Assembly (NCBI GenBank): GCA_031289425.1
Contig: JAITPM010000109.1
Span: 1-42,837, forward strand
DNA from: Fusobacteriaceae bacterium
GTDB lineage: Bacteria; Fusobacteriota; Fusobacteriia; Fusobacteriales; Fusobacteriaceae
Length of the DNA stretch: 42,837 bases
Direction: 5' to 3'
How positions within the stretch are numbered: the first letter of the stretch is position 1; each line of letters starts with the position of its first letter. Positions 6,498 to 18,656 of the stretch are shown one piece after another. The notes under the pieces are model-generated. The model did no database searches and had not been told where the DNA came from. It saw only the letters and a program-made list of their open reading frames with translations. The translations under genes and the position numbers were made by a program.

Positions 6498-8552
6498 ATG
6501 ACCGAACTTGAAGAAAAAATTGCTCTTAGAGAAGATTTATATAAATGGTTTTCAGAACATGTGTCAAGTTCCAATTTATTTGAATTATATTTGGGATTAA
6601 ATAAAGTTGAACAATTTGCAAAGAAGAAAAAATTGATTTCCGGTTCACTGTTAGATCCGGAAACACTTGATAAAATAAAATTAATCAAAACATATGTTTC
6701 CACAAATGCAAAATTTATAGATGTAGATAACAAACAAATCCCTATAATCAAAGATGCATTACAGTTGTTGAGCGAATATTGGAGTAAACATAAGAAAGTT
6801 GTATCATCTGACATTATAAACGCATATATCCCCGAGACAAACACAGATGAAGATATTTCTGATATGTGCTCGGATTCGCTTGTTGGTTATGATACACTAA
6901 GTAGTGAAAAAGAACATTTTATTGATAATACTAAATTCTCAATACCTCTTAATCTTAGTCATACGGATGATTTTGATTGTTTTGATGTATCTATTGGTCT
7001 TAATTTTCCATTACCAATATCTAATGAGTTTGTCCAACCGATTGAAATTGATCAATTCGATTTTTCTATTAATCATATTCCAGATATTTATGACAATAAT
7101 ACTAGTCGTTCAACAGAACAAACCTTGTTTTCATATGCCGAAAATGACTATTATACTCCATATAAAGTTATTTTGGCTGGAAGGTTTCGCCGTGGATTCT
7201 TATTGAATTCCGCAATTGAAATAGATAGATATAGAACAAGTTATAAAAAAATATATCAAAAAATATCAAAAGAAAAAGATAGAGAAATTCAAAACGCAAT
7301 GAAAAAAATAGGAATTGAATATCAAGGTAGGATTTATTCTTCGGACACAATGCTAAGTGTTGAAATCAGAAAAAAATTGATGAAATATATAAATGATAGC
7401 TTTGATTCAGGAAAAAATGCTATTTATTATAAAGCTTTGTTTGATGAATTTTCAGAAGATTTTTTGAATGAATATATTTATAGTCCGGAAATGTTGAAAA
7501 GTTACCTTGAATATTGGAATCAAGGACAATATGCTATCAAACGCTTGTATGTTTCCAAAGACGGGACAACTGAAGTCAATCCGGTAGAAGAAATCCGTGT
7601 GTACATGAAGGAAGCCAATTCCATACTTACATTTGATAATCTGGAGATTAGGCTTACACATATACCGCTTAATAAAATAAAAAATGTACTTTCCAGCAAT
7701 GATGAATTCATTCGTAACGGTGTAGGAGAATATTTTGTTGCTGATATAGTAGATTTAAACAATGATGAACTGGATGATATAGCAAGAATCATCAAGCAAG
7801 TGATTGATGACAAAGAATTTATTGCAGGGAATGAATTGATTGAAGCAATTGGCAGGAAATATCCACAGATATCTGAAAAACTCTCTATCTTCTCCACCTT
7901 TGGGAAAAGAGATGTTATAGGATATTACCTCAAAGATAAATTTTCATTTAATGGAAATATTATAAGTAAGTATGGGGAAGAGCTTTCAATGGCTGACGTA
8001 TTTGGTCATTATTGTCTAAAGCACAATCATGTTACCTTGGATGAATTAAATCTACTGAGCAAAGAACTGGATGCGAATATATATTTTGAGGCTGTTTACG
8101 CCAATTCTTTACGTATAAATCAAAATGAATTCATATCAAAAAAATTTGTAAAATTTGATATAAAGAGAACTGACGAGGCAATAGATAAGTTTTGTATATC
8201 AGATTACATTGCTATCCAAAATGTCAATCAATTTGCATCTTTTCCCCCTATTGGATATCCGTGGAACAACTATTTATTAGAGCATTATGTGTATGAATAT
8301 AGTAAAAAATATCAACTTTTTCCTGCTACATTTAATACAAATTCTTCTGTAGGTGCAATTATAAAAAAATCTTCAAAGTATAAAAATTTTGAAGAAATAC
8401 TTACCGATGTATTGGCAAAGAGTAAAATAAATCTAAGCGCTGATATTGCAGTAGCGTATCTATATGAACAAGGATTTATCGGAAGGAGAAGTTATGCTAA
8501 AATAGGACAAATCTTGACAAATGCCAAAAGATTGAGAGAGCAGGAAAATTAA
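6498..8552 (+). CDS. Uncharacterised BREX-island protein, probable tandem winged helices
   Basis: I do not recognise this 684-residue protein. Residues 1-120 are helical; 120-225 are acidic and low in lysine (a probable flexible linker rich in D, S and N); 225-684 are a globular region. Segments about 360-418 (a helix, then DEFIRNGVGEYFVAD), 495-556 (VFGHYCLKHNHVTLDEL through NQNEFISKKFVKFD) and probably 285-345 look like successive winged-helix or HARE-HTH-type domains, suggesting DNA binding. The C-terminus (GYPWNNYLLEHYVYEY through IGRRSYAKIGQ) is also helical. There is no SGGKDS PAPS-reductase loop, methyltransferase motif, P-loop or nuclease motif. A GGAG box ten bases upstream supports the ATG. 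As first gene of the island it may be the specificity or DNA-recognition component (inference). Confidence 0.7.
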   Translation: MTELEEKIALREDLYKWFSEHVSSSNLFELYLGLNKVEQFAKKKKLISGSLLDPETLDKIKLIKTYVSTNAKFIDVDNKQIPIIKDALQLLSEYWSKHKKVVSSDIINAYIPETNTDEDISDMCSDSLVGYDTLSSEKEHFIDNTKFSIPLNLSHTDDFDCFDVSIGLNFPLPISNEFVQPIEIDQFDFSINHIPDIYDNNTSRSTEQTLFSYAENDYYTPYKVILAGRFRRGFLLNSAIEIDRYRTSYKKIYQKISKEKDREIQNAMKKIGIEYQGRIYSSDTMLSVEIRKKLMKYINDSFDSGKNAIYYKALFDEFSEDFLNEYIYSPEMLKSYLEYWNQGQYAIKRLYVSKDGTTEVNPVEEIRVYMKEANSILTFDNLEIRLTHIPLNKIKNVLSSNDEFIRNGVGEYFVADIVDLNNDELDDIARIIKQVIDDKEFIAGNELIEAIGRKYPQISEKLSIFSTFGKRDVIGYYLKDKFSFNGNIISKYGEELSMADVFGHYCLKHNHVTLDELNLLSKELDANIYFEAVYANSLRINQNEFISKKFVKFDIKRTDEAIDKFCISDYIAIQNVNQFASFPPIGYPWNNYLLEHYVYEYSKKYQLFPATFNTNSSVGAIIKKSSKYKNFEEILTDVLAKSKINLSADIAVAYLYEQGFIGRRSYAKIGQILTNAKRLREQEN

Positions 8553-8627
8553 TGTATTATAATTTTGAGAATAAATTTAAATAAATAATATAATAATAGT
8601 ATTAATATGCTGGATGGAGGAATTGGA

Positions 8628-9392
8628 ATGAGAAGAAAGCGAAGTTTGAATAGTTATTCACATCATGCGCCAAGATTAAATTGGTTTGAGCAATACTTTA
8701 AATATAAAGATACATTTAATGTAAATCATAGTTTGGGGTCGTCAATGCTCAAATATTTTATAAAATTTTTGAAAGATGCCTGTCTATTGGATAAAAAAGG
8801 TTTTACAAATCTGGCAAAAATAGTAGATAAAATTAAACTAAGGAACCCAAATAGCTGGGCAATTATACTGTCCAATTTATGTTATTCTCCTCAAATTAAA
8901 TGGTATATTAAAAACATACATATTAATGAAAGTTACTTAAGAAAAGAAATTCTTTCGATGTTGACAAACGCCGGAGCAAGTGCAAAAGGCATAACAGATA
9001 TTTGGATGTCTTTAGTAAGAATATTGAATCTACCTTTTGGAGAAGTAGGTTTGGGGTATGTGACTAAAGAAAAAAACAGATCCTTATCTTTAACCAGAAC
9101 CGCTTGGCAAAATCCTGACCCAATCGTAATTTTGTATTCTCTCTATAAATTCGCCGAGTATTGCGGAGATTATTATCAATTCACCCTGACACGTTTATTA
9201 AAATATGATATAGATAGTGCTGGAATTAGCCCAACAGAAATTTATGGAATCGACCGTACTCAAATGGAAAAAATTCTTTTGGGACTTTCGATTAATTATC
9301 CCGATTATATATCTGTTTCATTCACACATGACTTAGACAATATAAGCCTTCATGGTGATAAATCATCTGAAAATGTACTAAACCTGTTTTAA
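8628..9392 (+). CDS. Stand-alone DUF4007-like protein (C-terminal BrxP-like module)
   Basis: A 254-residue protein resembling the DUF4007-type region that in BREX type 4 BrxP and related proteins follows a PAPS-reductase domain. Recognisable stretches are the PRLNWFEQYF opening, DPIVILYSLYKFAE-GDYYQF, GISPTEIYGIDRTQM and a terminal SINYPDYISVSFTHDLDNI. The ATP-sulfurtransferase loop (SGGKDS) of the reductase half is absent here and in the neighbouring gene. I place the start at the ATG at 8628 because GGAGG lies seven bases before it; the in-frame ATG at 8607 has no ribosome site. It sits 16 bases before brxC in the same operon. The biochemical role of DUF4007 is not established to my knowledge. 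Confidence 0.7.
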   Translation: MRRKRSLNSYSHHAPRLNWFEQYFKYKDTFNVNHSLGSSMLKYFIKFLKDACLLDKKGFTNLAKIVDKIKLRNPNSWAIILSNLCYSPQIKWYIKNIHINESYLRKEILSMLTNAGASAKGITDIWMSLVRILNLPFGEVGLGYVTKEKNRSLSLTRTAWQNPDPIVILYSLYKFAEYCGDYYQFTLTRLLKYDIDSAGISPTEIYGIDRTQMEKILLGLSINYPDYISVSFTHDLDNISLHGDKSSENVLNLF

Positions 9393-9408
9393 TTAGGAGG
9401 AGATAATC

Positions 9409-12400
9409 ATGGCGTTAGAAAAATATGGTCATTATTTTAGTATTGATGAAGATTATTTCCCAGCAGTTACGGAAGATCTTATCAATAGGGGAAAGGTTGA
9501 CTGGAAAAAGTTTTATCCACATGAAACTTTTGTAAAATTGCTAAAAGATACTGTAAGCGTTTTGACCAGACAACAAAAACTCTCTATATGGGTAGAAGGT
9601 GCATACGGTACCGGTAAATCCCATGCAGTACTTACTTTGAAAAAGTTATTGGATGCCGATGAAAATCAAGTAAAGGAATATTTTGGGAAATATATAGCTA
9701 ATCTTCCGACCGATTTGTTTAATAAATTTCAAGGAGTCAAAAATCAAGGTCAGATTTTGACTATTCATCGTTATGGTTCATCTACAATACACAGTGATAG
9801 GGACTTGATATTTGCTGTTCAAGAGAGCATTAAGAAATCTCTGGAAGATAGAAAAATTGAAAATAAAGGTCAAAATGCATTAAAAGAAGCTGTTATTGCA
9901 TGGCTTTCTGATATAGATAACAGAAATTTCTTTAATAGCTTAATCACCGGTAAATATGCAAACGGATTTGATGGTGATAATGTAGAAATAGTTATCGAAA
10001 AGTTGAATACTCTTTCAGAAGAAAGTCTCATTCATTTGATGAATAAAATATTTAAAGTCGCAGATGAAGTTGGTATTAATGCAATCAAGATAGATATTGA
10101 CGGATTGATTTCTTGGATAAAAAATGTTATCTATACCAATAACCTAAAGGCTATTGTATTTATTTGGGATGAATTTACAGAATATTTTTATCATAATAGA
10201 AATTCTCTAACAGGGTTTCAGAAATTGGTAGAATTGGGAGCTACAGAGCCATTTTGTTTTATGATTGTAACGCATAAGAGCGCCGCATTATTTGATGATT
10301 CTGATAGGGATAAGATGAAGATTTTAGATAGATTCATTAGACCTACATGTAGCATTGAATTGCCGGAAAATATGGCTTTCCAATTGATAGGGGCGGCTAT
10401 GGAGAAAAATCAGGATTCACAGATACTTTCCGATTGGGATGTGGCTGCCAATGATTTGAATAAACGCCTAAAGGATTCCAGAGATTTGGTCAAAAAAAGA
10501 GCAGGAATCAGTGAAAAAGAACTTATGAATATTCTTCCTATTCATCCCTATACTGCACTATTATTAAAGTATGTATCTTCGGCTTTTAATTCAAATCAAC
10601 GGAGTATGTTTGATTTTATAAAAAATGATAAAGGAGAAGAAATCAAGGGATTTCAATGGTTTATAAAAAACTATGGTCCGGCAGATGACGCACCTTTACT
10701 TACTATTGATATGTTATGGGATTTTTTCTATGAAAAAGGAAAGGAAAATTTATCTCCTGACATTAGGACTATTCTTGATTCTTATTCACGCCAAAGCACA
10801 AAGAATTTGAACGAAGAAGAACAAAAGGTTTTAAAGACTGTTTTATTGTTACAGGCTATTTCTCAAAAAGTAGGAGATTCTGTAGAACTATTTATTTCTA
10901 ATGATAAAAATGTGAATAACGCATACGATGGTTCAGAGCTCGAAAATGGTGCAGCAGGTCGTATTGCTGAAAAATTAGTCAAAGAACAAATACTATATAA
11001 AAAACCTCTGGGTGCAAATAAATTCCAATATTCTGCAATGATAAATGCTAATGATGCAGGAGCTATAGAGCGGATTAAAGAAGAATTACGAAAAAAATCT
11101 ACCTTTGATCTTGTGAGTGAGGGGAATGTCTTAGATGCTTTCACTTTGAATGGAGCATTGGGACTTCGTTATAAGATAGAATATGCTACATCTGATAGTT
11201 TTAAAGCTAAAATCAATACTATGCGCAATCAAGAAGATACTTTTGCAAATAAAATCTTAGCTATTGCTACCTTTGCAAGAAATGATGAAGAAAGTGCTGC
11301 TATTTCCAAGGCAATAACAGCCGCAGTAAAAGATGGCAGTTATAAAATGATTTTTATAGATACTTCATCTACACCCTTAGGCTCTGATGCGTTCGAACAG
11401 TATCTGGAAAACATGGCAAATAGTAATTATCATAGAGGAAAGGATAATTCACTTGCCAGTCAATATGAGAATAATGCAAAAGAAGTCCTCAAAAAATGGA
11501 AGAATCGCATCCTTGATGGAGAGTTTATTCTTTATAATAAAGAAAAACCTCAAGGAGAGAGATTTTCTAACTTTGATGATTTATGTGATGAATTTTCTCA
11601 TATCAATAAAAATAAATTCCCTTTGGGAATTGAGAATTACAAAGTGATAGATAACATGTTTGCAGCCAATTTTTTGAAGTTGGGGGCAGAATGTGGGATA
11701 TCACAAATCGTAACAGGGACTTTTAAATCTGGTAATCCCAATACAAAACTAGACACTGCCCTTGCTGGAGCATGGAATGTAGATGGGTATTGGAGTCTTT
11801 CAGAAAATCGCAACCTACTAATAACAAAGATCAAAACTGCCATAGATGAAGAAATTGACAAATCCCTTATAAAAGATGGGAAAGTCTCGATCGCACACAT
11901 TTATAATATTCTGAGTGGTGAGAGATATGGATTTATGCCTTGCAATCTTACTGCTTTTATATTGGGATTCCTATTGAAAGAATATGCCAACGATACCTAC
12001 CGCTGGTATGGCGGGCAGGACAATGGAAATATGAGCGCAACAAAATTAAAGGATATGATAGAAGAAGTTATTAGACTTCAAATCACTCCAAATTCCCGCT
12101 ATGAAGATAAATTCATAGTTAAAATGACAAATGACGAAATGGTATTTAATGAGGTTACAGCTAGTATTTTCAACATTCCACCAAATCTTTGCACTTCTGT
12201 AGAGCGAACTATATCTTATCTCGGCGAGAAAATGCAAAAGCTGATTTTTCCTATTTGGAGTTTAAAGTACATTCTTGAAAAAATGGAAATTAAATCTTCA
12301 GATAAAGTGATAAAATCTATCATTGACAAATATCTTATAATTGCCAACAGTCAAAGCATAGAAGGATTAAATAGTGGTAATCAAATCGCACTGGATATTG

Positions 12401-13605
12401 GTAAAATATATGCTGATAATCCACTGGCTTCCGAAGATTTGAAAAAACTTATTACAAAAGAACACTGTGAAGAAGGAATCATACAATTTTTATCTGGGTT
12501 TGAAAATGGTCAACTGATTTCACTTTCCAATGAAATAGGAGACCGTAAACAATATATAAATGTACTTAAAAAAAGATTTGTTGCTAATTCAGCAAGTTTA
12601 ATATGGAACATTGGTGCAGCAGAGCAAATAATAAAAGAAGTAATTATCGAATACAAAATTATTGCTGAGAGTAATAAGATTATTGGTAAAGCGACCTCAT
12701 TTACAGATTGTATATATAATTGGTCTGAAAAAATAAAGTTTATAAAAATATCTTATGATGCAATAAAAGATCATGTGGTAGAAGTTAAACCTTTCCTTGA
12801 AATGCTCGTAATGATAAAGCGTTCCGGTGCTTTGTCGAACCAACAAAAAGAATTTTTATTTCTATTGCAAGCAAAAAAAGATGCTTTTAGTGAATTTTAT
12901 AATAATCAAATTAATATTTTTAAAAAGGCTTGTGAATTCTATATTGATAGACTTTCTAATGATGAAATTGAAGAAATATTCAGAAATATTCCTACTGAAA
13001 TGTTTATAAAAGAAAAGAGTGAATACCTAAAAATAGTAGAGGGCGTAGTTTCTGTATTCATAGAGAATCAGGGAAAAACTAAGCTTAAAACCATTTGGAA
13101 AAGTAAAACCGGGACAGATAATCCTCAAAATTGGTCCAGTAAATATTTGACTCCTATATTGTGTATGGTTTCTGATGGTGAACGAGATAGAGCAAAGGTC
13201 GCATTTGAATGCATTAAAAACAATAATACTAAAAAAGGGGAGATAGAAAAAGCTATAGATTATTTTGAAAAAGCTGCTTTCTTTGCTTCATTAAACAATG
13301 AAGATGAGCGCAATGATGCTTTTAGAAAGTATATCATAAAAGATTTTTCTGTTATGTTGACTGATATTGATGAAGTAAGGGATTATTTGAATGAAAAAAT
13401 GACTTCAGAGCCATATGATTGGTTCGCTAATATTGATGTGGAAAAAAGGCTCCGTGCTTTTGCCGAATCAAAATATAATACCGGTGGTAGTAATAAGGCC
13501 TTGGAAATAATAGAAAACATGGATGAAACAAAATTAAAGATTTATCTAAAACGATTGATTAAAGATAATATGACAGTTGGGATAGAAATCATAAAAGACA
13601 AATAA
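9409..13605 (+). CDS. brxC: BREX large P-loop ATPase (BrxC/PglY-like)
   Basis: A 1398-residue cytoplasmic ATPase, within the usual 1200-1400 size of BrxC/PglY proteins. The Walker A loop GAYGTGKSH is at residues 64-72 and a Walker B strand IVFIWDEFTEYF at about 249-260, with VTHKSAAL and FIRPTCSIELPE following as in AAA-type sensor regions. The remaining 900 residues are helical with no further motif I recognise. BrxC-type ATPases are essential in characterised BREX systems and work with PglZ, but their exact reaction is unresolved. An AGGAGGAG site precedes the ATG. The gene starts 16 bases after the DUF4007-like gene and pglZ follows 32 bases later. The frame is intact throughout. Confidence 0.85.
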   Translation: MALEKYGHYFSIDEDYFPAVTEDLINRGKVDWKKFYPHETFVKLLKDTVSVLTRQQKLSIWVEGAYGTGKSHAVLTLKKLLDADENQVKEYFGKYIANLPTDLFNKFQGVKNQGQILTIHRYGSSTIHSDRDLIFAVQESIKKSLEDRKIENKGQNALKEAVIAWLSDIDNRNFFNSLITGKYANGFDGDNVEIVIEKLNTLSEESLIHLMNKIFKVADEVGINAIKIDIDGLISWIKNVIYTNNLKAIVFIWDEFTEYFYHNRNSLTGFQKLVELGATEPFCFMIVTHKSAALFDDSDRDKMKILDRFIRPTCSIELPENMAFQLIGAAMEKNQDSQILSDWDVAANDLNKRLKDSRDLVKKRAGISEKELMNILPIHPYTALLLKYVSSAFNSNQRSMFDFIKNDKGEEIKGFQWFIKNYGPADDAPLLTIDMLWDFFYEKGKENLSPDIRTILDSYSRQSTKNLNEEEQKVLKTVLLLQAISQKVGDSVELFISNDKNVNNAYDGSELENGAAGRIAEKLVKEQILYKKPLGANKFQYSAMINANDAGAIERIKEELRKKSTFDLVSEGNVLDAFTLNGALGLRYKIEYATSDSFKAKINTMRNQEDTFANKILAIATFARNDEESAAISKAITAAVKDGSYKMIFIDTSSTPLGSDAFEQYLENMANSNYHRGKDNSLASQYENNAKEVLKKWKNRILDGEFILYNKEKPQGERFSNFDDLCDEFSHINKNKFPLGIENYKVIDNMFAANFLKLGAECGISQIVTGTFKSGNPNTKLDTALAGAWNVDGYWSLSENRNLLITKIKTAIDEEIDKSLIKDGKVSIAHIYNILSGERYGFMPCNLTAFILGFLLKEYANDTYRWYGGQDNGNMSATKLKDMIEEVIRLQITPNSRYEDKFIVKMTNDEMVFNEVTASIFNIPPNLCTSVERTISYLGEKMQKLIFPIWSLKYILEKMEIKSSDKVIKSIIDKYLIIANSQSIEGLNSGNQIALDIGKIYADNPLASEDLKKLITKEHCEEGIIQFLSGFENGQLISLSNEIGDRKQYINVLKKRFVANSASLIWNIGAAEQIIKEVIIEYKIIAESNKIIGKATSFTDCIYNWSEKIKFIKISYDAIKDHVVEVKPFLEMLVMIKRSGALSNQQKEFLFLLQAKKDAFSEFYNNQINIFKKACEFYIDRLSNDEIEEIFRNIPTEMFIKEKSEYLKIVEGVVSVFIENQGKTKLKTIWKSKTGTDNPQNWSSKYLTPILCMVSDGERDRAKVAFECIKNNNTKKGEIEKAIDYFEKAAFFASLNNEDERNDAFRKYIIKDFSVMLTDIDEVRDYLNEKMTSEPYDWFANIDVEKRLRAFAESKYNTGGSNKALEIIENMDETKLKIYLKRLIKDNMTVGIEIIKDK

Positions 13606-13637
13606 GATACTTGGCTTAAAGAGGAGGGAGATGCATT

Positions 13638-15935
13638 ATGAAGCATTGTTTACCTATTGATGGGTGCATAAAAAAAATATTTAAATATTTAAATTCTGAA
13701 AATGACCATCAACCTATATTTGTCAATATCGAAAGTAGTGATTCACTTAAAAAAATCAAAGAAGAACTTGGTATTAGTGTTATCGTAAAAGATGTATCTG
13801 ATTATTGTAATAAAGATGATGAAAACCCACAATTGGAATTATTGCTCGAAGACCTTAAGCATAGTAAAAACAATAAAGATGGAGAACATATACTTTTAAC
13901 CGGCCTAATTTCTTTTCTTAAAATGCAAGGAGGACTAGCATTAGAAAAATATCTATCGGTCCTAATAACAATGACACTTCGCGGAAAATTAGTCGTTTTG
14001 TGTTATCAAGCAAAACAATATTTACAATTTCCAGATATCAGATTTGAAAGAAGAATTATTTTTCTCGAAGATGAGATATTAAGAAAACCTAAAATATTAT
14101 TTATTAATAAAAAATTAAATCTCGAGATATCGAATACAATTATGAATGGTATTCGTTATTTGCTAAAAAATATAGAAATATCCGATATAGATATAATCAC
14201 AGTGTCCACATCAAAGAGCAAGCAAGATTATCCCAATTCTTTATTTAAAATTACCGAAATAACTGATGCTTACGATGCATTGGTATTGATGGATGCCGTT
14301 ACAGAGTTGATTCCTAGACATTGTGGTACCAATGAACAATGGGATTTTGCTCTATCGCTTTTTTCAAAGGAAAGGACATGGAATCATGTTTTCACAATGG
14401 AATTGGGAGAAAGTGTAAATTTATATTTGCTTGCAAACAAATGGAGCTTTTTTAATACAGATGAAAAATGGTTATACTTTATTGCTCTCAAATTAAATGG
14501 AATATCTAATAATTGGTGCTTGGATTATGCACTTATAAATTCAAACAATGTGAAAGATTTTGAAAAAAATATCTATAGAAGCATTGTTGAGATATCGCAT
14601 GACAGTAAAGAATTTGATGATAAATATGACAAAAGAAAACGATTAATCAAAGAAATGGGAAAATCTCTCGGTGATGGTGCTGTTGATTATTGTCAATATA
14701 TTAGGATTAAGGGCTCAGACATCATCTATTATCTGACTGATAATACCCAAGTAGAGAAAGAATTGATTATTGAGTGTTTATGTAAATATAAGTATGATGA
14801 TAAAGCTATTTTGAGTATTCTAAAAATTGTATATCCGGCTCTGGCAGATTATTTGTATGATTATAGATTTAATATAACTTTGCTAGATGAGTATTTTCAA
14901 TTGTACAAATACCAAAAAATAACAAATACTATTCGCCCAGAATTCGAAGAACTCGTGAAAACACAAGCCATAAAAAGAGAATATAATAGTATTCTTCCAT
15001 TTAGAAGTGAAAAAATAGAAGCAATCGTCAAAAAAGATTCTTACCTGTATTTTGTTGATGCAATGAGTGTGGAATATCTCGGTTATATTCTTACTAAATG
15101 CAAAAATATGGAGCTTATGATAAATGTTACGGTTTGTCATTCCAACCTCCCGTCGATAACTGAATGCAACAAAGAATTTTTAGATGAATTTACACGTGAA
15201 GAGATAGATTTTTCTTTGATAAAAGAACTTGATGAAATAAAACACCATGGGAAAGATGATTTTGATTATCAAAAAACTAAACTTCCCATTCATTTGATTA
15301 GGGAATTGGAGATTATTGATGAAATTCTATCTAGAGCCAAAAACCAATTGAATTCTGATAAATACAAAAAAATTATTATCATCTCAGACCATGGAGCCAG
15401 CAGATTGGCAGTTATAAAAGAAAATACGCTAAATATTGATGTCAATTCCAAAGGAACCCATGGTGGCAGATGTTGCGCATATACTCCTGACACTACAAAT
15501 ATCGAATATGCAACACAAGAAGGAGATTATTATATTTTAGCTAATTATGACCGGTTCAGAGGCGGCAGAGCTGCAAGTGTAGAAACTCATGGTGGTGCAA
15601 CTCTTGAAGAAGTCGTGATTCCCATCATTGAGCTCACTCAGAGAACTACTGAAATAGAAATCGAGATTGTGACACGAAAGATTTTTGTTAGTTTTAGAAA
15701 GAAAGCTGTTATTGTATTATTTTCTAAGACAAAGTTATCTTCTGTATCAATATGCATAAATGGTCAATATTATCATGGGATAGCAATACCCGATAATAAA
15801 TACATTATTGATATGCCCGATATAAAACAAGCTGGAATCTACACTGTGGATGTCTATGAGAATAATAATTTATTAAAAAATGGGCTTTCTTTTGAAGTAG
15901 AAAAAGAAGGATCTAAAATAACAAAATTATTTTAG
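13638..15935 (+). CDS. pglZ: BREX phosphatase-family protein PglZ
   Basis: A 765-residue protein with a PglZ (alkaline-phosphatase superfamily) domain in its second half. The metal-site residues of this fold are visible: D474 in YFVDAMSVEYLG, the SDHG motif (583-586) in IIIISDHGASRL, and H608 in GTHGGR. A second HGG at about 650 leads into LEEVVIPIIEL, as in other PglZ proteins. The last 90 residues look like a beta-sandwich. PglZ is the hallmark gene of all BREX types and is needed for defence; size and neighbours fit the type 4 form best. GAGGAGG lies ten bases before the ATG. An out-of-frame ATG at 13631 is ignored. Confidence 0.88.
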   Translation: MKHCLPIDGCIKKIFKYLNSENDHQPIFVNIESSDSLKKIKEELGISVIVKDVSDYCNKDDENPQLELLLEDLKHSKNNKDGEHILLTGLISFLKMQGGLALEKYLSVLITMTLRGKLVVLCYQAKQYLQFPDIRFERRIIFLEDEILRKPKILFINKKLNLEISNTIMNGIRYLLKNIEISDIDIITVSTSKSKQDYPNSLFKITEITDAYDALVLMDAVTELIPRHCGTNEQWDFALSLFSKERTWNHVFTMELGESVNLYLLANKWSFFNTDEKWLYFIALKLNGISNNWCLDYALINSNNVKDFEKNIYRSIVEISHDSKEFDDKYDKRKRLIKEMGKSLGDGAVDYCQYIRIKGSDIIYYLTDNTQVEKELIIECLCKYKYDDKAILSILKIVYPALADYLYDYRFNITLLDEYFQLYKYQKITNTIRPEFEELVKTQAIKREYNSILPFRSEKIEAIVKKDSYLYFVDAMSVEYLGYILTKCKNMELMINVTVCHSNLPSITECNKEFLDEFTREEIDFSLIKELDEIKHHGKDDFDYQKTKLPIHLIRELEIIDEILSRAKNQLNSDKYKKIIIISDHGASRLAVIKENTLNIDVNSKGTHGGRCCAYTPDTTNIEYATQEGDYYILANYDRFRGGRAASVETHGGATLEEVVIPIIELTQRTTEIEIEIVTRKIFVSFRKKAVIVLFSKTKLSSVSICINGQYYHGIAIPDNKYIIDMPDIKQAGIYTVDVYENNNLLKNGLSFEVEKEGSKITKLF

Positions 15936-15946
15936 GGGGATTTATA

Positions 15947-17392
15947 ATGGAAGAAAAACTTAGAGAATGTTTTGATGAAATGGTTGTCTTTAAAGATTTG
16001 AAAAAAAGTAATTTCTTTTCGGCTCTGAGCCTTCCTTCTTTTTTACGGGATTGGTTGCTAAAACGATTTGAGAATGAAAATGGAGAATTTAATATAGATG
16101 AAGTTTCTAAATTTATCCGAGAATTTTTACCAAAAAAAGATGATTGGGTTAGTATAAAAAATAGGATTATCATTGACAATGAAAGAGTAAAATTTCTTAC
16201 AAAAATCTCAGTTGATATTGATATTAAAACACAAGAAATTTCTTTTTCTTTAGTGGATTTTGGATTGACAAATAAAGAAACAATTATTGAGCCGAGTATT
16301 TGGAACAAATGCAAGAATGAACTGGTCAAGGGAAAAGAAACTTGGGGTGTGGTAGAGATCGGATATCGCTTCCCGAATCCGGAATATAAGTTGCCGGGAA
16401 AAATTAAATTGACCGGGTTTACTAATTTTTGTCCATATACAATTGATATTGATTATTTCAAAGATGTCAGAAAAGAATTTACAATTACCGAATGGGTTAA
16501 TGTAATATTGGGTGCTATTGACTACAACGCATCAGGATATAAAGATGAATCCGAAAAACTTTCTATGTTAACAAGGCTCCTCCCTTTTGTGGAAAAACGT
16601 TTGAACCTGATTGAGCTTGCTCCCAAGGGAACAGGTAAATCATATTTATTTGGACGAGTAAGTAAGTTTGGATGGTTATCTTCGGGTGGTGTAATGTCTA
16701 GAGCAAAAATGTTCTATGACATTGGTAGGCATACTCAAGGATTGGTTTGCAACAATGATTTTGTCGCTCTTGATGAAGTGCAAACGATATCTTTTACGGA
16801 TATAGATGAAATGAGAGCCGCATTAAAGGGTTATATGGAATCTGGAGTATTTACTGTAGGTAATTATGAAGGAATGGCAGATTCAGGAATAATTTTACTT
16901 GGAAATATCAAACAAGAAAATATGGACGAATATCAAAATATGTTCGAAGAGCTTCCACAAGTTTTCCATGAAAGCGCGCTTATTGATAGATTTCATGGAT
17001 TTATCAAGGGTTGGGATATTCCAAGGATGCATGATGATTTAAAAATCTCAGGATGGGCACTTAATTCAGAATATTTTTGCACTATTCTTCATTTATTACG
17101 TGAAGATGCTAGTTATCGTGCAATCATAGATCAATTGATCATTGTACCTGAGCATGCCGACACGCGGGATACTGAGGCTATTAAACGTATTTGTACAGGA
17201 TATTTGAAGTTGTTATTTCCCAACGTTCGTTCTATTAAGGATATCGCTGCAAAAGATTTTAACACATACTGCCTGAGACCTGCATCAAAAATGCGTGGAA
17301 TAATCAAGACTCAGCTCGGGATTTTGGATAATGAATTCAAAGGGAAGAATGTACCAAAATTCAGCATCAAAGACTTTTCTTATGAAGATTAA
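15947..17392 (+). CDS. brxL: BREX AAA+ protein BrxL, short form
   Basis: A 481-residue AAA+ protein of the BrxL family. Walker A is APKGTGKS (225-232) in IELAPKGTGKSYLFGR and Walker B is FVALDEVQ (272-279), followed by LPQVFHESALIDRFHGFIKG, a BrxL-type sensor region. The longer BrxL of type 1 BREX (about 680 residues) continues into a Lon-protease-like domain. This protein ends soon after the AAA+ part, matching the shorter 450-residue BrxL form, and I see no Lon catalytic Ser-Lys region. The ribosome site AGGGGGA overlaps the pglZ stop codon, so translation is probably coupled. It is the last gene of the island; a strong terminator begins 11 bases after its stop. Confidence 0.87.
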   Translation: MEEKLRECFDEMVVFKDLKKSNFFSALSLPSFLRDWLLKRFENENGEFNIDEVSKFIREFLPKKDDWVSIKNRIIIDNERVKFLTKISVDIDIKTQEISFSLVDFGLTNKETIIEPSIWNKCKNELVKGKETWGVVEIGYRFPNPEYKLPGKIKLTGFTNFCPYTIDIDYFKDVRKEFTITEWVNVILGAIDYNASGYKDESEKLSMLTRLLPFVEKRLNLIELAPKGTGKSYLFGRVSKFGWLSSGGVMSRAKMFYDIGRHTQGLVCNNDFVALDEVQTISFTDIDEMRAALKGYMESGVFTVGNYEGMADSGIILLGNIKQENMDEYQNMFEELPQVFHESALIDRFHGFIKGWDIPRMHDDLKISGWALNSEYFCTILHLLREDASYRAIIDQLIIVPEHADTRDTEAIKRICTGYLKLLFPNVRSIKDIAAKDFNTYCLRPASKMRGIIKTQLGILDNEFKGKNVPKFSIKDFSYED

Positions 17393-17465: not shown

Positions 17466-18656
17466 TTATATTTTACTCAACCCTAATTCCAAATCAGCAA
17501 TAATGTCCTCTACATTTTCAAGTCCTACAGATAATCTTATCAAACCATCAGTAATATCAGCATCTATTCTTTCTTCTCTCGTATATGTCGAATGAGTCAT
17601 AGAAGCCGGATGTTGTATTAATGTTTCTGCATCCCCGAGACTTACTGCCAAAGAACATAGTTCTAATGAATTAAGAAAAGTTTTTCCTGCTTCAAAACCA
17701 TCTTTTAATTCAAAGGATATCATTGCACCAAATGTTTTCATTTGCTTTTTAGCTATTTCATAATTTGGATGAGATTCTAGCCCTGGATAATAAACTTTTG
17801 ATACTTTTGGATGTTTTTCCAGAAATTGAGCCACTTTCATAGCATTTTCGCAAAGTCTTTCCATTCTTATTTCAAATGTTTTTAATCCTCTGATTATATA
17901 ATATGCTTCTGTTGCTCCCAATGTAGCCCCAGTCATATCTTTTAGACCGACACCTCTGATTTGGTCGATTATTTCTTGTTTACCGATTACAAACCCTGCG
18001 ATTACATCTCCATGCCCATTTATATATTTTGTAGCAGAATGCACCACTATATCGCACCCAAGTGTAATTGGTGTTTGATTGTATGGAGTTGCAAAAGTAT
18101 TATCCACAACTACCATTGTGTTCTTATTAGTATGTGCTATTTTTGAGATTTCTTCAAGATCGACTATTTTAAGGTTGGGATTTGCTGGAGTTTCCAAATA
18201 AATAACCCTAGTATTAGGTTTCATTGCTTTTTTTACAGCTTCTAAATCGGAAGTGTCTATAAAATCAACACTTATTCCAAATCTTGTAAGCCCATGATTG
18301 ATTAAAGCAAAAGTACATCCATATAATGTTTTGTCTGAAATAATATGGTCACCTTGATTCAACAATGTCCAGAATGTAGAAGAGATTGCTCCCATACCTG
18401 ATGCCGTTGCCATTGCAGCTTCGCCACATTCTAATAATGATATTTTTTCTTCTGCCACCGTAATTGTCGGATTTGATGTTCTGCTATAGATATACCCCTT
18501 TTCTTCTAGAGCAAACCGTCTACCACCTTGTTCAGCAGTCTCAAATGTGAATGTTGATGTCTGAAATATTGGTGTTGCTAATGCTCCGAAAGCATTTTTC
18601 TGCTGGCCTCCATGAATACTTTTAGTTGCGAACCCCTTACTCTTTAAATCTTTCAT
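17466..18656 (-). CDS. megL: Methionine gamma-lyase (PLP-dependent)
   Basis: A 396-residue member of the Cys/Met-metabolism PLP family. Methionine gamma-lyase splits methionine to methanethiol, ammonia and 2-oxobutyrate (EC 4.4.1.11), a route known in fusobacteria for making volatile sulfur. The PLP lysine is K210 in VHSATKYINGHGD, with YSRTSNPT (57-64) for phosphate binding from the neighbouring subunit. Diagnostic for this enzyme rather than cystathionine lyase or synthase is C114 in LYGCTFA, equivalent to the active-site cysteine of Pseudomonas methionine gamma-lyase, together with GLKDMTGA. AGGAGG precedes the ATG. It lies 33 bases after hpf on the same strand and may be read from the hpf promoter. 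Confidence 0.92.
   Translation of the reverse strand: MKDLKSKGFATKSIHGGQQKNAFGALATPIFQTSTFTFETAEQGGRRFALEEKGYIYSRTSNPTITVAEEKISLLECGEAAMATASGMGAISSTFWTLLNQGDHIISDKTLYGCTFALINHGLTRFGISVDFIDTSDLEAVKKAMKPNTRVIYLETPANPNLKIVDLEEISKIAHTNKNTMVVVDNTFATPYNQTPITLGCDIVVHSATKYINGHGDVIAGFVIGKQEIIDQIRGVGLKDMTGATLGATEAYYIIRGLKTFEIRMERLCENAMKVAQFLEKHPKVSKVYYPGLESHPNYEIAKKQMKTFGAMISFELKDGFEAGKTFLNSLELCSLAVSLGDAETLIQHPASMTHSTYTREERIDADITDGLIRLSVGLENVEDIIADLELGLSKI

Follow-up and report, generated by a model that had tools for sequence, protein, structure and literature searches.

The first gene of a BREX operon in a Fusobacteriaceae bacterium encodes a tandem-winged-helix protein (hereafter, the head protein) that is a near-constant component of type-4 BREX among nearly all loci sampled. 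The head may serve as a sensor or adaptor of the BrxC-PglZ restriction arm, similar to the role proposed for PglW, a reading to which we give a probability of about 0.5. Depictions of type-4 BREX usually show four or five genes, and a further near-constant gene implies that a type-4 reconstitution lacking the head may fail or mislead. A first-pass annotation of the same DNA had taken the protein for a possible new BREX specificity factor; this was half right, the head being an unlisted BREX component, but probably not the specificity factor.

The head gene and its occurrence in type-4 loci

The operon lies within the window, i.e., the whole stretch of 42,837 nucleotides that was analysed (contig JAITPM010000109.1 of assembly GCA_031289425.1). 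It opens with an uninterrupted plus-strand frame at 6498-8552 encoding the 684-residue head (P0001), which was assigned from the frame, homology, an AlphaFold2 model, and the locus survey, and whose ATG is preceded at 10 nt by an AGGAG ribosome-binding site. On the same strand and with short spacing, PADLOC, NCBIfam, and Pfam models identify a stand-alone DUF4007 gene equivalent to the C-terminal part of BrxP (P0002, 8607-9392; BrxP profile match), brxC of the type-4 clade (9409-13605; PADLOC model PDLC02485), pglZ (13638-15935; BREX_PglZ_4), and brxL (15947-17392). The tight linkage of the head to brxC-pglZ-brxL and the absence of PglX from the operon, both pointed out in the first-pass annotation, are thus confirmed, and so is its description of the protein as unrecognised, as searches of PADLOC, Pfam, NCBIfam, PHROGs, and PDB sequences gave no match to the head above the cut-off. 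Weak matches to DUF6175, Sul7s, and Rex fell below the cut-off and were discarded.

The window's BrxC has no other occurrence among 98 genomes of the phylum, and the head has none among 96 genomes of the order, including the window's own family; therefore, the operon was probably acquired horizontally. A comparison with two genus mates did not define an empty site, the flanking genes being too divergent or multi-copy.

As a single-protein query against plasmids and viral contigs, the head gave no match, and its relatives surfaced solely via BrxC and BrxL. Retrieval guided by these two proteins yielded 80 loci on genome contigs and a few on viral contigs, which are those nearest to the window's BrxC rather than a random type-4 sample and hence are biased to similar systems. 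Residues ~219-684 of the head share homology (20-46% identity) with the C-terminal part of the product of the gene that immediately precedes brxP. This C-module is encoded there in 74 of the 77 loci with enough upstream sequence (70/72 after duplicate removal), with a median gap to brxP of 2.5 bp. One exception in this count, L076, has a divergent head in the same place, as recognised by a profile HMM. In L005, the head was not detected, and it is absent from a Methanosphaera plasmid locus, so that it is not indispensable. In a separate draw of 391 genomes from the class of Acetanaerobacterium elongatum, the close-family matches with readable flanks adjoined brxP. Co-occurrence of homologues with DUF4007, BrxC, PglZ, and BrxL in other genomes, which the first-pass annotation had put forward as a check, is therefore near-universal for close homologues; the opposite outcome it had named, homologues found mostly outside BREX, does not hold for these, although some remote relatives are found in non-BREX settings. 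The components given in the main text of a recent survey do not include the head protein (PMC12839542). A second, partial head relative with repeats like those of another head, P0007, is encoded downstream of the BREX operon in L023 (17492-19135).

Loss of the PAPS-reductase half of brxP

In type 4, as described in the survey, the methyltransferase is replaced by BrxP, in which a PAPS reductase is frequently fused to DUF4007 (PMC12839542). The window keeps DUF4007 and type-4-clade BrxC, PglZ, and BrxL in the usual order of this phosphorothioate-linked type (BrxP-BrxC-PglZ-BrxL), but it lacks both the PAPS-reductase/Fe-S half of BrxP and an adjoining cysteine desulfurase. P0002 matches positions 521-774 of the 779 in the BrxP profile (E 1.2e-56), so that only the DUF4007 end is left, and comparison with relatives places the missing part in the plus-strand intergenic gap at 8553-8606. 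Across all contigs of the genome (97.8% complete), neither a PF01507 PAPS-reductase domain nor a DndC match was found, while PF01507 was matched in 14/14 control genomes. A contig-edge artefact is unlikely, the operon being internal to the 42.8-kb contig and the domain present on no contig. All sampled relatives whose sequence extends more than 3 kb upstream of BrxC have a PAPS reductase, the window being the sole locus without one. The operon is of type-4 descent and has lost the PAPS-reductase half of BrxP; with the enzyme absent from both operon and genome, we term it type-4-derived rather than complete type-4. Such loci may not be unique, since the published survey did not find a PAPS reductase in 11% of type-4 taxa (PMC12839542). 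A linked cysteine desulfurase is given there for 56% of type-4 taxa and is thus not strictly defining (PMC12839542); none is linked to the operon in the window, where the downstream PLP-enzyme gene (17466-18656, minus strand) belongs to PF01053 (E 2.3e-151). A copy 96% identical to this flanking gene lies elsewhere in the genome, on a different contig (G000:C9:3285-4472).

After the head stop codon, where brxP (MYSY...) would start, there is a short frame of 10 codons (MYYNFENKFK, then stop), which could conceivably be a relic of the brxP start or else a product of chance. The same gap holds the region's best promoter-like site (TTGAGA-18-TATAAT, 11/12, at 8565-8594); the total number of such sites equals the chance expectation.

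The way in which DUF4007 could outlive the other half of its gene is suggested by brxP itself. The window's DUF4007 starts at the point corresponding to the BrxP linker MPKGGLKM, and within the frame open from 8607 its likely start is at 8628, behind GGAGG. At the PAPS/DUF4007 junction of 74 brxP genes, an in-frame start codon is found in 73 (ATG in 69, GTG in 4), and AGGAG or GGAGG lies 4-12 nt upstream of it in 54; the genes with the conserved internal site include those of L012, L138, L004, and about 70 others, the window equivalent being 8607-8634. Among 65 representatives below 80% identity, 45 have the internal ribosome-binding site, where synonymous-codon shuffles predict 16.4 (z 9.3). 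Only 3 of 973 other internal ATGs carry such a site, and the rate at the junction resembles that at the starts of brxC, pglZ, and brxL. Internal initiation yielding a separate short DUF4007 besides full-length BrxP is thus strongly predicted from these sequences; a literature search returned no mention of an internal brxP start. The predicted second product could play a part like that of SspB, which is a separate protein in Ssp systems, and with such a start DUF4007 could remain expressible in the window after loss of the PAPS half.

It is quite possible, if somewhat short of an even chance, that the window holds a recently broken type-4 system whose downstream genes are intact but useless and whose head is now functionless. 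The singular lack of a PAPS reductase among the sampled loci, its absence from the rest of the genome, and the confinement of the operon to one genome of the 98 in the phylum all speak for such a recent break. On the other hand, DUF4007 keeps a good ribosome-binding site and start, and the remaining proteins have lost hardly any of the positions conserved elsewhere at 95% or more (kept: head 10/10, DUF4007 27/27, BrxC 115/119, PglZ 55/56, BrxL 148/151), which argues against long neutral decay. Solitary phosphorothioate-linked restriction modules without modification genes have been recorded for Pbe (PMC6459918). A more ambitious proposal, that type 4 combines a PglW-like sensor at its head with a two-product brxP and that the window operon is a working sulfur-free derivative making the short product only, must be regarded as doubtful. 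A type-4 operon devoid of the sulfur enzyme offers a way to test whether the restriction arm acts, or is tolerated, without the mark.

Architecture, relatives, and proposed role of the head protein

The AlphaFold2 model of the head (67 sequences; mean pLDDT 84.6, 535 residues at 90 or above) comprises helices at residues 2-102 forming a four-helix domain, disorder at 103-215, and a winged-helix array at 220-684, mostly with pLDDT above 95. The repeated unit of the four-helix domain covers residues 11-94 (6528-6779, plus strand) and, as judged by repeat search, Pfam, and VIA, bears a weak likeness to the SAM-like core-binding domains of tyrosine recombinases. The disordered linker (6804-7142, plus strand) is strongly acidic, with a net charge of -20 and a pI of 4.05. 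The conserved C-module at residues 219-684 (7152-8549, plus strand), delimited by homology, the model, and VIA, consists of five to six winged helices, which by our own division span 220-281, 288-353, 362-414, 422-491, 498-547, and 555-623 and are followed by a helical tail. The helical N-terminal domain, the acidic linker, and the at least two winged-helix-like segments noticed in the first-pass annotation are all recovered here, the last in larger number and with matches in solved structures.

According to VIA-align, residues 361-415 fit the Z-alpha domain (1j75) with Z 10.0 and rmsd 1.1 over 54 residues, and residues 353-493 fit SelB (1wsu) with Z 8.1 and rmsd 5.9 over 117 residues. The best Foldseek matches are the tandem winged helices of UFL1 and SelB, with ESCRT-II also among the matches, while a BFVD fold search gave none at E <0.001. 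The head shares a string of winged helices with SelB and UFL1, but at ~10% identity and low whole-chain TM-scores; these matches point to a fold class and imply no function.

In contrast to the C-module, the N-terminal part is modular. The domain at residues 11-94 recurs in 75 copies in 44 head proteins, and the window head is a short family member with a single repeat. Pfam Phage_int_SAM_1 matched 22/71 family members (best 1.8e-5), the window copy not being among them; predicted separately (pLDDT 86.6), this copy has its best VIA match in the integron integrase 2a3v (Z 6.7, rmsd 3.3, 82 residues). A relationship to the core-binding domains of recombinases is plausible but unproven. Other heads have N-terminal stretches of up to ~1100 residues and reach 1556 residues in total, and the length of the N-terminus differs even between close systems. 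One of them, P0006, contains RpoA-CTD and sigma-region-4 domains, neither of which was found in the window head by family-model search. Most homologues have an acidic C-module (median pI 5.26). This does not discriminate between readings, DUF4007 and BrxC being equally acidic, and the isoelectric point was abandoned as an indicator of DNA binding.

Remote relatives of the C-module were met in three settings: before Pbe/Dnd genes, beside PDC-M33 genes, and alone in chromosomes, where they often carry a sigma-region-4 domain. No counterpart of the head is known to us among the Ssp components. Ssp does have counterparts of BrxC, DUF4007, and the PAPS reductase (PMC12839542). In the Dnd-Pbe setting, a remote relative of 1334 residues (L130, 6945-10949) directly precedes the PbeA, PbeC, DndB, DndC, and DndD genes; it is not PbeB, which has only 66 residues (PMC6459918). 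Four further remote relatives adjoin the M33A/B/C genes of the PADLOC candidate PDC-M33, identified in L122 (8927-15146) and present in the same clusters in L132, L135, and L136. This operon differs from that of the window in having no BREX genes, and the C-module is only remotely similar to the type-4 profile; the arrangement suggests that a head relative is a fourth gene of the candidate system. Furthermore, Flexilinea flocculi (L118) has two complete type-4 BREX loci whose heads differ greatly, and in the tree the head of the second clusters with the remote relatives. Exclusive BREX membership is ruled out by this grouping and by the relatives found elsewhere; thus, the family is broader than BREX, and its neighbourhoods indicate that part of it probably serves other defence operons. 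A phage record from human faeces (MT835511.1) contains, at 13133-15985, a gene whose product shares 27% identity with the head family.

As a sensor or adaptor, the head would use its variable N-terminus to detect some property of invading DNA or of the way in which it is transcribed or replicated, while the winged-helix array would dock BrxC-PglZ, much as proposed for PglW in type-2 BREX, and the choice of site would rest with DUF4007/BrxP. In the window, the marking half of BrxP has been lost, leaving the head, DUF4007, BrxC, PglZ, and BrxL; the head has kept all its conserved positions though the PAPS reductase is gone, which argues that it is not merely a modification factor. The variable length of the N-terminus would suit a sensor. 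PglW, which is large and multi-domain and has three winged helices after an RpoA-CTD-like domain, has been proposed to be a sensory hub (PMC12839542). Some head-family members have an RpoA-CTD as well; the two are likened here by domain layout, and, unlike PglW, the heads P0001, P0006, and P0007 contain neither a NERD nuclease nor a Ser/Thr/Tyr kinase domain. As a counterpoint to the sensor or adaptor role, tandem winged helices may act purely as protein scaffolds, as the UFL1 and ESCRT-II matches illustrate.

A transcription regulator, controlling either the operon or host genes, could equally well contain the sigma-region-4 and RpoA-CTD domains of relatives, and the head would be a derived form of such a protein. 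The position of the head as the first gene of the operon and the solitary chromosomal relatives point the same way. Nevertheless, such a role is unlikely for a family whose members reach the size given above, which is separated from brxP by a near-zero gap, which strongly co-varies with BrxC and PglZ instead of being freely exchanged, and whose window representative is devoid of both domains.

Site specificity and the exchange of brxP

That the head is a specificity factor, reading through its winged helices and N-terminal repeats the DNA sequence to be marked or attacked, is distinctly improbable: the winged-helix array and the N-terminal modules, variable in length even in close systems, would fit it, but brxP is exchanged between near-identical operons whose heads are up to 99% identical, the Methanosphaera locus does without a head, and DUF4007 has been proposed as the BrxA-like DNA-binding module of type 4 in the survey (PMC12839542). 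The last proposal also weakens the premise of the first-pass annotation that a target-recognition component was to be sought where no PglX exists.

The exchange is best seen between L012 and L082, where DNA identity is 88-100% from the head through brxL save for positions ~8050-9750 within brxP, where it drops to 51-65% with sharp edges inside the gene. To judge from the alignment, this segment has the pattern of an exchanged specificity cassette; brxP would then be the seat of sequence specificity, and the sites marked by L012-like systems should differ from those marked by L082-like ones.

Pairwise identities compared gene by gene over 63 loci agree with this picture. The identity of the head C-module follows that of BrxC (rho 0.894) and PglZ (rho 0.892). 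Once BrxC is accounted for, the partial correlation of the head is 0.12 with the PAPS part, 0.08 with DUF4007, and 0.40 with PglZ, while PAPS and DUF4007 stay tied to each other (0.61). The head is thus inherited jointly with BrxC and PglZ, and brxP (PAPS and DUF4007) is exchanged beneath them; for this reason, BrxP/DUF4007 is the better candidate for the site-determining role, and the head is better placed in the restriction arm, contrary to the earlier suggestion that the head itself provides specificity. In close pairs, the residual scatter is 0.038 for the head and 0.039 for PglZ against 0.101 for DUF4007, and among 219 pairs with BrxC identity above 0.6, which are not independent of one another, a deficit above 0.25 occurs 26 times for DUF4007, six times for PAPS, once for the head, and never for PglZ or BrxL.
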